From Chloroflexota bacterium (GTDB lineage: Bacteria > Chloroflexota > Anaerolineae > Promineifilales > Promineifilaceae): 64,000 nucleotides of DNA. The stretch is taken from the NCBI GenBank assembly GCA_018004935.1, contig JAGNBF010000010.1, positions 12,653 to 76,652 on the forward strand, read 5' to 3'. The position numbers and the translations under genes are program-made. The notes under the pieces are model-generated. The model saw only the letters and a program-made list of their open reading frames with translations. It made no database searches and was not told where the DNA came from. Shown one piece after another: positions 10,095 through 47,991 of the stretch. Position 1 is the stretch's first letter. The number at the start of each line of letters is the position of its first letter.

Positions 10095-10349
10095 CGCTTT
10101 CAAGATAAAGATTTTGGGTTTTACGAGACGTTATCCCGAGTGTTCCCAATCGTAAATGCTATACTAAACCTCTCGAGGGCTGAGCTTGTCAAAGCCCGTT
10201 TGCCTTCGACAAGCTCAGACAACAGGCTTAGTATAGATGTTCAGAAAATGATTTTGAGCCTGGTTTGTAGTAACGGCTTTAGCCGTCCAGCGTGGGACCG
10301 CTAAAGCGGTTACTACGAACCCAAAATCTTTTTCTTGAAAGCTATAGTT
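10095..10349. repeat. Intergenic hairpin D and paired short repeats
   Basis: Hairpin D lies at about 10171-10228 (CTGAGCTTGTCAAAGCCCG and CTTCGACAAGCTCAG). On either side are AGTAACGGCTTTAGCC and GCTAAAGCGGTTACTAC, which pair with each other, and TTTTCTTGAAAGCTATAGTT, an end motif shared with 22300 and 59650. Nothing coding was seen. Confidence 0.6.
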
Positions 10350-10451
10350 GAGTCCACTGAAAAAAAGTCAAAACAGTTAAAAGCCCGGTTTCTTTTTCTC
10401 TGGAAGCGACGGTTAAATTAGTCAGAAACCGGACTTTTTGCAGTAGACTCA
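10350..10451. mobile_element. M3 102-bp element with 5-bp target duplication ATAGT
   Basis: Ends TGAGTCCACTG and CAGTAGACTC are near-perfect inverted repeats. The interior has AGCCCGGTTTCT pairing with AGAAACCGGACTT. Exact 5-base flanks ATAGT lie at 10345-10349 and 10452-10456. It is in the opposite orientation to the copies at 30278 and 47873, which have the same 102-bp length. Confidence 0.85.
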
Positions 10452-10559
10452 TAGTTGCCTTCTCACGCTGAATGAGATTACCCACAAATAGCTAACTTTT
10501 CAACTTTTGCCCCACCTCCCTGACCTCGTTACAATTTCAGGCTCTAAGGAGATATTGCC

Positions 10560-28338: not shown

Positions 28339-30003
28339 TTAGGGCCAGATTATCTCTAGCCATTCACGAACTTCAATCGGATGAAGAAATTGTCCCAGGT
28401 AATGGTCTCCCAGCCAAAGCTCAAAATGGAGATGAACATCACCATCGGGGTTTTCTTGGGTTATTGGGGAACCGGAGTTTCCCACATTGCCTAATCGTTG
28501 CCCGACGGTGACGCGTGTCCCGACTTCTATACCGGGGGCAATAGCGCTGAGGTGGGCATAATGGGCTACCCAGCCATTATCCAGTTGTAGCCAGATCTGG
28601 CGGCCGCGATAAAAATCTAAAACCTCAGGGGAGGTGAATCCTTCGGCCAGGACGGTTTCATGCATTTGCCCAAAGAGCCAGGCTGTGGGAGTAATGTAAC
28701 TGGTATCGGCGCGGATAATAACCCCGGCGGCCACAGCTTGAACAGGGGTACCAATGGTTTTGTAGAAATCCATACCCTCATGGACACCCAGACGGTAATG
28801 GCGGGGCGCGCCAGGCAACTGAAACTCCCGCAAGGCTACACTGGTATCCACGATGGGGCGTAATAGCCCCTCTAAAGTTGCCAGGGTGAGCGGATCATGG
28901 GGTTGGCCTGAGGCCAATAACACCCCCCCGGTGATGGTCGCTAATTGTTCGGGCCGCTCTACGAAGTAGAGTGCATCCCGTCCGGCCAGGATGAGGCGGG
29001 TGTCATCGGCCCAGAAGGTACTGATCGGCTCGGTGAAGGTCCAGTCACGAATGAACTTGCCGCTGGCGGCGGTGAAGGCTTGCAGGTGAGAGCCAGCCTG
29101 GTCCAGGATGTAGAGGGTGGTAGGGGTGGCGAGAATAGATCGCGGCCGCGTTAATACCCCTGACAATGTCCATTCTACCTGTGTGCGCAAAGCCGCTTCC
29201 ACTTTAACGACTTGCCCCATTTCCGCACCTGCCTGGGTCAGCACATAGGCAAAACCCCCCTGCACACTCAGATCAACCTCGCGACCATCCCCCGATAACC
29301 AGGCATAAATATCCCCATCATCAGTGTAAGCCTGAACGAATTTGTAGCTGGTTTCCAGAAGAAAACGGGTGTCCGTATCCGCACTCAGGGCTACATAATA
29401 TTGTGAAGAAACATCCCGCACTCGCCGGTCGTACCGATCTAGTTGCCATAAATTGGTAACGGTATTGTAGTTGTACACATCCCCCGCCCGATCCAGCACA
29501 TAGAGCATTTCCCCGGCACTGTCCAGATCGAATGGCTCCAGAACAGGCACAGCATCTATGATGGCTCCAGCCTGGAGAATGACCTGGGGGGGAGTGGGGT
29601 GAAGGAGATCGAGGCGTAGGACGCGGCCGCTGTCTAACAGATAAGCCGTATCACCAATAACTTCCAGCGTACGTGGGTGGACGAAGTTGCCCGGTTCATA
29701 TTGCCACAAACCAGTATTGTCTAGCCCCATTTGCTGGGTGCGGGCCGTGAGTCTATCTTTGGCGGCTGTTGCCGGGCTGGTGGGGGTTGGCGATGGTTCA
29801 ACCACTGAAACTGTAGCGACAGGTAAAGTGGCTGTTTGTGTCGGGGGGATGGTGGGGGTGGCTGGTGCCGGGATGGCTGTGGTGGGGGCCGTAGCGATAG
29901 GTGAAGGGGTAGAAGCGGTGGGCACGCGGCCGCAGGCAACAAGACTCAATAAAAAAAAGGTAACTATACACGTCAGAAACCAGGTTTTTCTCTTATAGGG
30001 CAT
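28339..30003 (-). CDS. M23-family peptidase lipoprotein with beta-propeller-like middle
   Basis: 554 residues from ATG 30003. Lipoprotein signal LSLVAC with C24, then a Pro/Thr/Ala-rich linker, a central beta-repeat region (NPVLEPFDLDSAGEMLYVLD type), and a C-terminal M23 domain with the metal motif HEGMDF and the catalytic HLHFE. It likely cleaves peptidoglycan peptides or binds the wall. The start codon and first about 14 residues lie inside an M2 element (29960-30053). Removing element plus one duplication (102 bases, in frame) restores a GTG-started signal peptide at 30096 preceded by AGAGGTGG. Either start is possible today. Confidence 0.8.
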   Translation of the reverse strand: MPYKRKTWFLTCIVTFFLLSLVACGRVPTASTPSPIATAPTTAIPAPATPTIPPTQTATLPVATVSVVEPSPTPTSPATAAKDRLTARTQQMGLDNTGLWQYEPGNFVHPRTLEVIGDTAYLLDSGRVLRLDLLHPTPPQVILQAGAIIDAVPVLEPFDLDSAGEMLYVLDRAGDVYNYNTVTNLWQLDRYDRRVRDVSSQYYVALSADTDTRFLLETSYKFVQAYTDDGDIYAWLSGDGREVDLSVQGGFAYVLTQAGAEMGQVVKVEAALRTQVEWTLSGVLTRPRSILATPTTLYILDQAGSHLQAFTAASGKFIRDWTFTEPISTFWADDTRLILAGRDALYFVERPEQLATITGGVLLASGQPHDPLTLATLEGLLRPIVDTSVALREFQLPGAPRHYRLGVHEGMDFYKTIGTPVQAVAAGVIIRADTSYITPTAWLFGQMHETVLAEGFTSPEVLDFYRGRQIWLQLDNGWVAHYAHLSAIAPGIEVGTRVTVGQRLGNVGNSGSPITQENPDGDVHLHFELWLGDHYLGQFLHPIEVREWLEIIWP

Positions 30004-30053
30004 GAGTGGGTCTACGCAAAAACCCGGTTTCTCCAGCGAGGCTGTATAGTTAC
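29960..30053. mobile_element. M2 element inserted in frame into the lipoprotein signal peptide
   Basis: Termini GTAACTATACA and TGTATAGTTAC; exact 8-base flanks AAAAAAAG at 29952-29959 and 30054-30061. The interior hairpin pairs AGAAACCAGGTTTTT with AAAAACCCGGTTTCT. Element plus duplication is 102 bases with no stop in the gene's frame. Confidence 0.88.
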
Positions 30054-30277
30054 AAAAAAAGAAACACCACTTTTTCCAATGTATCTGCGCCAGCACATAC
30101 CACCTCTACCAGTCAGATTTTTGGGTTCTGCTGTTTTGGTCGGGAAAATGGACTGGTGTCGCGACTGTAACCAGCCAATTCTGGCTTTCATGAGCCAGTA
30201 TTGGTTTTCCCCTAGAGCAAACCTGGGGCAAGTCTAACACGAACTGCCCTGGAAATGAAAATGCCCGCTTATATCTA

Positions 30278-30379
30278 TGAGTCTACTGCAAAAAGCCCGG
30301 TTTCTGACTAATCTAACCGTCGCTTCCAGAGAGAAAGAAACCGGGTTTTTAACTGCTTTGACCTTTTTTCAGTGGAGTC
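30278..30379. mobile_element. M3 102-bp element with 5-bp target duplication ATCTA
   Basis: Ends TGAGTCTACTG and CAGTGGAGTC. Exact flanks ATCTA lie at 30273-30277 and 30380-30384. The interior AAGCCCGGTTTCT pairs with AGAAACCGGGTTTTT, a terminator-like hairpin. Confidence 0.88.
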
Positions 30380-30479
30380 ATCTATAGTTACCCTGGTTAT
30401 AAAGTAACATTTTGTTTGCGACCACAGCCTGCGTAAGTTGAGGCTCAAGGCCCATCCCCTGCCTTTCCCAGAGGAAAAG

Positions 30480-30715
30480 TAAGACCACCAGCGCGGTTTG
30501 GGGGGCAATGGCGAAAAACACCGCCACAAACAAGAGATGGAGAAGGTGTCCCTCCCCTCGGCGCGGTTTGGGGGCAATGGCGAAAAACACCGCCACAAAC
30601 AAGAGATGGAGAAGGTGTCCCTCCCCTCGGCGCGGTTTGGGGGGCGTCCGCCCCCCAAACCGCGCCGGAAAAAGTTCCCCGCCCCTGGGGGCGGGGTTAG
30701 GGGTGGGGGAAATAC
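30480..30715. repeat. Family E hairpin with a 69-base tandem duplication
   Basis: Two adjacent 69-base copies (about 30492-30560 and 30561-30628) contain ATGGCGAAAAACACCGCC and AGATGGAGAAGGTGTCCC. They are followed by the full hairpin at 30629-30666 (18-base arms GGCGCGGTTTGGGGGGCG, loop TC) and the conserved tail CCCCGCCCCTGGGGGCGGGG. In each duplicate the left arm is present but the right arm is replaced. Confidence 0.75.
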
Positions 30716-32054: not shown

Positions 32055-32342
32055 GTTGCTACTCCGTAAGTTTGTGGCGTTGGTAAAGTAAGGAATGGGA
32101 ATTAAATAACCTGCTCACTCAAAGGGGCGCGGTCAGGAAACCGGCCACAGTAAATGGTCAAGCGCAACTATACAACCCCTCACCCTAACCCTCTCCCCCA
32201 GGAAGAGGGAACCAACTCCCCTCTCCCGAAGCGGGAGAGGAGCCGGGGGTGAGGGGTAGCTGTTCCGGTGATCGCCACAGTCAGAGTACCTGTATAGTTA
32301 CGTTCAATCTATTTAATTATTGATCCTGAGTGTACCAATACC
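32055..32342. repeat. Family C block and M2-type composite element
   Basis: Family C (GGGGCGCGGTCAGGAAACCG) is at about 32124-32153. The element at 32164-32301 begins GCAACTATACA and ends TGTATAGTTAC. It encloses CCCTCACCCTAACCCTCTCC and its reverse complement. Flanks GGTCAAGC and GTTCAATC agree at 6 of 8 positions. Confidence 0.65.
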
Positions 32343-46306: not shown

Positions 46307-47869
46307 CTAATCAGCATAACGATCAAATAGTAGTTTAGCCAAACGCTGTAATTGGGCGGGGTGGCATTGGCTTTGCTGAAGCAGGTCGTCTATTTCCGTC
46401 GGGGTGAATTGCACGGGCGTTTCGAGCAGGCGTTGGCTCAGGAAGGTGCGAGCTTCGGGTTCGGTAAAGGGGCCGAGTGTTTTTTCGACAAAGATGTTGT
46501 GAAAGGGTGACAGGCCATTGGTAGTGCGGGCAGGGAACACATTTACCAGCGGCCGCTGTGAGGCTAGACACAAGGCAAAATGGGGTTCCTGGGCCAGGGC
46601 ACGGAGTAAATCGTGCAGGCGGGGGTTGAAGTCAGGTTCGGCCAGACGTTCTACCTCGTCGAGGATGAGGAGCAGGTTGCGGCCGCGAAGCGTGTTTTTG
46701 AGTTGGCGCAGGGTGTCACCGGCTTCACCCAGCCGGGTGAGGATTTCGCTACAAAAATCGGCTTCGTCAAGAATGGTTTGCAGGTCGAGAAAAACGGAGG
46801 TGGTATCAGAGAGCCAGGTAGAGGCGGTCTGGTAGAGGGTGTAGAGCAGGGATGATTTACCGATTTGGGAGGGGCCGACGAGGGAGATGCTACTGTGTTT
46901 ACGCAGTTCGTTGTGGATTTCGCGCAGTTCCCGTTGGCGACCGAAGAAGCGGGTGGGATCGTTGATGCGGCCGCGTATTCCAAACGGATTCTCACGTCGC
47001 ACTGGTTTGTTACCCGGCAAAAATCCCTGCACAATCTCCCCCGGCACGGCCAACACCAAATCCCGCAATTTAGCCGACTCCGCCAGGTTAAACCCCCCGC
47101 TCACCATCCCCACCACCTGCTGTGTCGCCACATCCACCACCGGCGCACCGCTCATGCCGTGATCCACCTCTTTGCTATCGAGCTGTAAGAAGGGCAAACC
47201 GGTCTCATCTAACACGCGGCCGCGTACCACCCCTCGCGCATGTAATCCGCGTATCGCTCCGGCCGGGGGATAACCAAAGGTGATAAAGGGACGGTCTTGT
47301 AATGACAGACCAGCGGAAAAGGTAAGAGGGGTGAGAGAAGAGGGCCAGGGAGCACGCGGCCGCAACACCGCTACATCTTTCTGCCCCGGGGCTTTGGGTT
47401 GCGACGAGGACAGGGCCACAATGTCGGCCAGATAGGTTTCTGAATGGGTATGCGGCCGCACCATCACATCTCCGGTCAACTTGTACACCACATGCGCACA
47501 AGTCACAATGAACGGCCCAGCCACGACAAACCCCGTGCCCAGGATTTTGCCCTTCTCGCCCAGGATGGCGACGATGCTATTTTCCAGATTGAACGGGGTG
47601 GGAACGGGGTCGGGTGCGGAGATAGGTGCAGAGGGATCACGCCAGGGGAATTGCGGCCGCAATATCTCACACAACGCCACCAACGCCTCTAACTGACCCC
47701 GTCGCTGGCAATAGGCAATCAACTCCCTGGCCTTACCATTCTTCCCTTCCCCACCCAGGTCCTCAAAATCAATACCCACATCCGTACATAGGCTGATCAA
47801 TTCATCTAACTTAAACTGAGTCGTCAATCCCTGCCGCAAATGGGTTAAATATTTCGGGTTATTATTCAT
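46307..47869 (-). CDS. EAD-trypsin-STAND NTPase fusion, probable conflict or stress-response protein
   Basis: 520 residues. An N-terminal effector-associated-like domain (1-75; LISLCTDVGIDFEDLGGEG, ARELIAYCQRRGQLEALV) is followed by a trypsin-fold protease with H126 (TCAHVV), D165 (KDVAVL) and S240 (GMSGAP). A STAND-type NTPase follows: FGRQREL (309-315), Walker A GPSQIGKSS (332-340) and Walker B LLLILDEVE with D404. It ends soon after the NTPase with no sensor repeats. Kaur, Burroughs and Aravind described related EAD-linked conflict systems. An M3 element lies at the start codon; without it the gene would begin 15 bases after the S10 peptidase. Seven octamers argue against recent import. 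Confidence 0.85.
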   Translation of the reverse strand: MNNNPKYLTHLRQGLTTQFKLDELISLCTDVGIDFEDLGGEGKNGKARELIAYCQRRGQLEALVALCEILRPQFPWRDPSAPISAPDPVPTPFNLENSIVAILGEKGKILGTGFVVAGPFIVTCAHVVYKLTGDVMVRPHTHSETYLADIVALSSSQPKAPGQKDVAVLRPRAPWPSSLTPLTFSAGLSLQDRPFITFGYPPAGAIRGLHARGVVRGRVLDETGLPFLQLDSKEVDHGMSGAPVVDVATQQVVGMVSGGFNLAESAKLRDLVLAVPGEIVQGFLPGNKPVRRENPFGIRGRINDPTRFFGRQRELREIHNELRKHSSISLVGPSQIGKSSLLYTLYQTASTWLSDTTSVFLDLQTILDEADFCSEILTRLGEAGDTLRQLKNTLRGRNLLLILDEVERLAEPDFNPRLHDLLRALAQEPHFALCLASQRPLVNVFPARTTNGLSPFHNIFVEKTLGPFTEPEARTFLSQRLLETPVQFTPTEIDDLLQQSQCHPAQLQRLAKLLFDRYAD

Positions 47870-47872
47870 TTC

Positions 47873-47974
47873 TGAGTCTACTGCAAAAAGCCCCGTTTCT
47901 GACTAATCTAACCGTCGCTTCCAGAGAGAAAGAAACCGGGCGTTTAACTGCTTTGACCTTTTTTCAGTGGAGTC
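47873..47974. mobile_element. M3 102-bp element abutting the EAD-trypsin-STAND start codon
   Basis: Ends TGAGTCTACTG and CAGTGGAGTC. Exact flanks ATTTC lie at 47868-47872 and 47975-47979. The first copy overlaps the start codon complement (CAT at 47867-47869). The hairpin inside is terminator-like, so it may reduce read-through from the S10 gene. Confidence 0.9.
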
Positions 47975-47991
47975 ATTTCTCTGTTTACCGG

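Follow-up and report, generated by a model that had tools for sequence, protein, structure and literature searches.

The Rickettsia palindromic elements (RPEs) are small palindromic repeats of about 150 bp that are found repeatedly in frame in protein-coding genes, to which they add residues, and they have been reported in unrelated metabolic genes (PMC10969869). In Yersinia, the RU-2 repeat lies within one predicted signal peptide, that of a 144-aa annotated ORF (Delihas 2007, PMC2759123), and this is the only direct precedent that we found in the literature on bacterial MITEs and signal peptides. A signal peptide with an internal in-frame addition still works, and even helps export, in the BKC-1 carbapenemase, where the addition is a 16-residue duplication of the core and not a mobile element (PMC8262980).

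Here, the signal peptide of a lipoprotein gene from a Chloroflexota bacterium contains a MITE, and the reading frame is kept as it is in the RPE insertions; the same is found in four genes of this genome. However, unlike the RPEs, this is a 94-bp MITE that is seen only in signal peptides and is bordered by duplications that define the empty site. It is not filed as an RPE, from which it is set apart here by its length (94 bp against about 150 bp) and its host lineage (Rickettsiales for the RPEs). For RU-2, the part of the account available to us shows no empty site, while here four genes have orthologues in other genera and three of them have duplications and readable ancestral signal peptides. 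What is new here is the recurrence in one kind of site, the readable empty sites and the link to IS66.

The features of the locus in the window (the whole stretch of 64,000 nucleotides that was analysed) are listed in Table 1. Read directly, the plus strand from 29952 to 30061 is AAAAAAAG-GTAACTATACA...TGTATAGTTAC-AAAAAAAG, i.e., a transposase-less element whose 11-bp ends are perfect inverted repeats and whose flanking 8-bp duplication is exact. The label M2 comes from the initial annotation and is kept only as a name. The single open frame of this copy reads NYTASLEKPGFCVDPL-MPYKRKTWFLTCIV. Matches to the terminal inverted repeat with at most one mismatch occur 10 times in the window, against 0.48 expected in shuffles, and an Rfam search with the element gave no match.

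Table 1. The MITE and its host gene in the window, in window coordinates.
Feature	Position	Strand	Basis
Fused ORF, 585 aa, M23-peptidase lipoprotein with the element in its signal peptide	28339..30096	-	ORF list; Pfam PF01551, E 1.6e-15
M23 peptidase domain, residues 438-564	28405..28785	-	Pfam PF01551
Lipobox cysteine codon (LVAC)	29932..29934	-	Sequence
Target-site duplication copy 1, AAAAAAAG	29952..29959	.	Sequence
94-bp IS66-type MITE (M2)	29960..30053	-	Sequence; ends common to IS66-family elements of relatives
Terminal inverted repeat GTAACTATACA	29960..29970	+	TIR pattern search
Element-supplied ATG (MPYKRKTWF...), near predicted hairpin apex	30001..30003	-	Sequence and folding
Terminal inverted repeat GTAACTATACA (complement on plus strand)	30043..30053	-	TIR pattern search
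Target-site duplication copy 2, AAAAAAAG	30054..30061	.	Sequence
Original GTG start codon	30094..30096	-	Sequence; GTG start calls in orthologues
AGAGGTGG, Shine-Dalgarno-like, three bases upstream of GTG	30100..30107	-	Sequence

The window also contains other repeats. A 92-bp sister MITE at 674-765 has GTAACTATACA ends, an 8-bp duplication AAATACTT and a CTTGTCGAAGCCCG-type interior, and in a 138-bp element at 32164-32301 near-identical ends flank a CCTCACCC... palindrome, with no clear duplication. A separate family of repeats of about 110 bp is present at 10342-10454, 30273-30387 and 47868-47976, with copies that are 92-95% alike; it shares the AAAAACCCGGTTTCT palindrome core, with ends that differ, and one of its copies is about 220 bases away from the studied element. 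In the gap that separates the lipoprotein gene from the next one, there are two tandem GGCGCGGTTTGGGGGCAATGGCGAAAAACACCGCC... units (30490-30628).

The ends of the MITE can be traced in genomes of the same family. There, L250 (in G007) is 1478 bp long, has GTAACTATACAGGT at both ends and is flanked by a perfect 8-bp duplication, GATTTTAG twice, and the ends of L266 (in G016) are identical to those of L250. In both, GTAACTATACA is identical and a PF03050 transposase is present. Since identical ends and 8-bp duplications occur in these IS66 elements of relatives, the studied element, which is short, transposase-less and present in many copies with IS66-matching inverted repeats and an 8-bp duplication, is best called an IS66-type MITE. 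It has the ends GTAACTATACA and the 8-bp duplication in common with IS66-family insertion sequences; however, it lacks the transposase, and its interior is unrelated to theirs beyond the ends. In its own genome, searches for IS66 transposases (PF03050) and for IS4-type or DDE_Tnp_1 transposases (PF01609) found none, and no inverted pair at 1-3 kb, i.e., no autonomous partner with the same ends, was seen on inspection of 98 exact terminal inverted repeats. This 8-Mb genome holds dozens of IS66-type MITEs for which no transposase was found; the enzyme's gene has been lost, or else it is missing from the assembly.

The ORF of the host gene is open from the GTG and has no stop across the whole element. 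The element and one duplication make up 94 + 8 = 102 bases, a multiple of three, so the reading frame holds over the 34 added codons. Without them, MLAQIHWKKWCFFF is joined to LLSLVACG, and the empty form of the gene is M(GTG)LAQIHWKKWCFFFLLSLVAC|G, i.e., MLAQIHWKKWCFFFLLSLVACG from the GTG after AGAGGTGG. Signal peptides were judged by hydropathy and lipobox rules, and by these the gene has a charged n-region, a hydrophobic core and a lipobox ending in Cys, which predicts a lipoprotein signal peptide. The exact duplication, the inverted repeats, the uninterrupted ORF and the readable empty site agree with the initial annotation, which had described a 102-base, frame-preserving insertion of M2 within a lipoprotein signal peptide, a GTG-started hydrophobic signal peptide upon its removal, and an element that brings an ATG and the Lys/Arg-rich MPYKRKTWF. 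The observation is thereby confirmed, and with the exact duplication, the readable empty site and the element-free orthologues, an insertion of the MITE into the signal peptide of a pre-existing surface lipoprotein, with the frame unbroken, is supported.

An alignment-based contig scan for the window gene found 35 loci, on contigs that are nearly all from Chloroflexota and mostly from Anaerolineae metagenome bins; the contig scan with the single window protein as query found no relative. The closest orthologues are less than 50% identical. The N-terminus is readable in 33 of them; a hydrophobic signal-peptide core is present in 31 of these and a strict lipobox in 22. A rule-based start caller put the start of several orthologues at GTG. 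It had been proposed that the insertion reading fails if relatives without the element lack a GTG-started lipoprotein at this site. As the orthologues have a core and a lipobox, with several starts at GTG, they do not refute it.

The surveyed genome (7.98 Mb, 229 contigs) is Anaerolineae-like. A search of it with the element scored about 40 copies, besides many further candidates, and a pattern search gave 62 sites; about 55 well-scored copies were extracted with their flanks. Of the 27 full-length copies, 17 are bordered by an 8-bp duplication in which no more than one base differs, and these duplications are AT-rich (26% G+C). Of the six frames of the family consensus, GTAACTATACAGCCTCGCTGGAGAAACCGGGTTTTTGCTTAGGCCAACTCATGCCCTACAAGAGAAAAACCCGGTTTCTGACGTGTATAGTTAC, a single one is open, which reads directly as NYTASLEKPGFCLGQL-MPYKRKTRFLTCIV; copies with TGAGG instead of TTAGG have this frame closed. 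No selection on the frame is seen across the family, which evolves neutrally in the ATG frame. Full-length copies were found neither in the 58 relatives searched first nor in 51 other genomes of the same family, where two partial matches of 34-36 nt were the only ones.

Each of the extracted copies was checked for fusion to a long gene. Exactly four are fused, all in the ATG frame, all N-terminal and all in signal peptides, and the three cases beyond the window strengthen the earlier claim that the element has been taken up into a secretion signal. The first copy, C64, is that of the window gene, with its exact duplication AAAAAAAG. The second, C139, has the empty site MSKKIFRLLLLFLVMGLSQSPITAQ-E, where a strong AGGAG precedes the ATG, and the duplication TCGACTTT; its filled form is ...MPYNRKTRFLTCIVT-RLLLLFLVMGLSQSPITAQ. 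For the third, C223, the empty site is MNIKRIKPFFFLWLLGMSWLMACQ, also given as MNIKRIKPFFFLWLLGMSWLMAC-Q, with the duplication CTTCTTT (7 of 8 bases) and the filled form ...MLYKRKTRFLMCIVT-FFLWLLGMSWLMAC. In these three, the target duplication is retained, which makes the empty signal peptide readable. The fourth, C194 (L117; MPHKRKTRFLMCIVTLLLGSLALAAC), has no duplication, its left flank being replaced by other repeats, and from the element ATG it reads MPHKRKTRFLMCIVT-LLLGSLALAAC. Upstream of this fusion, several mobile repeats are chained and the native lipoprotein start is gone. In n-region charge and core hydrophobicity, the filled forms are equal to or above the empty forms. Among themselves, the four copies are 80-89% identical, whereas each is nearer to non-fused copies than to the rest of the four; with these different nearest relatives, they are separate insertions. 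Orthologues of all four fused genes, in other genera, mostly have ordinary element-free signal peptides, and the element peptide is absent from all orthologue N-termini that were printed. This is a rare clear case of secretion signals repeatedly joined by one MITE family in one genome.

Other candidate fusions were rejected. On inspection of their translations, L012, L062, L069, L105, L106, L107 and L103 appear to represent upstream read-through before native starts, while in L085 the long part is upstream and the ORF ends shortly past the element. The L103 copy (C196) lies directly 5' of an intact lipoprotein start that has its own AGGAG-type site and is untouched. None of a further 57 sites, which belong to sister families and have the same inverted end but mostly other interiors, is fused; one of them, L207, opens into a membrane protein that was interpreted as starting at a site of its own further downstream.

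We suggest, with a probability of about 0.82, that an IS66-type MITE entered a T-rich stretch coding for a signal-peptide core and that a lipoprotein signal peptide was kept, now partly encoded by the element. Codons for hydrophobic residues have T at the second position, and the hydrophobic core of an existing signal peptide would thereby offer a T-rich target to a 94-bp element that makes an 8-bp duplication. As 94 + 8 is a multiple of three and one frame of the consensus is open, the protein would be read through into its mature part. The right half of this frame-neutral element happens to code for M-P-Y-K-R-K-T-(R/W)-F-L-T-C-I-V-T, i.e., a positive n-region of K and R residues and, with FLTCIVT, the first part of a hydrophobic core; the tail of the old core (FFLLSLVAC) would in this way be extended rather than destroyed. 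The insertion, the empty site, the frame, the intact downstream gene and the recurrence in four genes are all read from the sequence; the protein is presumably made and exported. The recurrence may reflect a target bias to T-rich core codons together with selective tolerance, the latter because the element carries a signal-peptide-like N-terminus by chance.

An alternative, which we consider to have slightly less than an even chance, is that the recurrence is pure survivorship: insertion would occur at almost any AT-rich site, insertions within genes would disappear unless they do no harm, only signal peptides would tolerate 34 extra residues, and the fusion would be a neutral scar, with no role for the element peptide. 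In line with this, no surviving copy is seen within a gene body, and silent and replacement counts are near neutral. The silent-to-replacement ratio is 11:15 in three fused copies against 47:119, a silent excess that is not significant (P = 0.17), and these counts do not show that the fused peptide is under selection. In rough chance models whose gene numbers are assumed and not measured, random insertion predicts 0.09-0.46 in-frame signal-peptide cases, with P of about 1e-4 to 1e-2 for at least three, and survival restricted to intergenic and in-phase signal-peptide insertions predicts 0.8-1.6, with P of 0.01-0.08 for at least four. If tolerance is assumed, the four cases exceed expectation only mildly. 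However, 4 of 55 copies are fused against 0 of 57 sister sites (Fisher P 0.055), which points to the element's own sequence and its frame-neutral length; among the sister elements whose second end was found, many are 93 bp, and since 93 + 8 is not a multiple of three, these do not keep the frame. By the models and the sister comparison together, the recurrence far exceeds what random landing would give and moderately exceeds what tolerance by itself would give. In C194, moreover, no start other than the element ATG is plausible, which argues for a role of the element there. It can be speculated, though we hold this only tentatively, that the element is a portable start-plus-n-region module, whose chance-encoded MPYKRKTRFLTCIVT remodels or regenerates signal peptides where it is in phase, including the C194 start.

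For the partly element-encoded signal peptide of the window gene, the start codon has two candidates. The consensus AGG seven bases ahead of the element ATG is changed to AGA in this copy (TAGACCCACTC-ATG), while the old GTG retains AGAGGTGG. This favours the GTG, from which the entire element is open, and the gene would somewhat more probably initiate there; its signal peptide would then be 55 residues in length and have a long n-region. The version of the initial annotation, in which the element replaced both the n-region and the start codon and translation begins at its ATG, is possible and somewhat the less probable of the two. From that ATG, the gene reads MPYKRKTWFLTCIVTFFLLSLVAC, a compact lipoprotein signal peptide; the ATG is near the apex of a stable hairpin predicted for the RNA of this copy (-32.5 kcal/mol, z -4), and C194, which has no good upstream start, probably does use the element ATG.

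An assembly artefact, in which unrelated flanks were joined at a repeat, is very improbable, for although the 229 contigs are apparently a metagenome bin, identical 7- to 8-mers flank the element and the flanks join to a proper signal peptide at three independent loci, and a 94-bp repeat is below common read lengths.

In a single genome, one family has come to lie in signal peptides on at least four occasions, three of them with defined empty sites. At these sites, signal peptides can be tested directly in the states before and after insertion, to learn how an added n-region and start codon are tolerated or used. The T-rich core codons, the frame-neutral length and the chance-encoded positive and hydrophobic peptide offer a mechanism by which signal peptides may serve mobile DNA as a landing zone. 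If the element does act as a start-plus-n-region module, one MITE family would have repeatedly rewritten secretion signals, and the start codon of C194 would be only element-derived.
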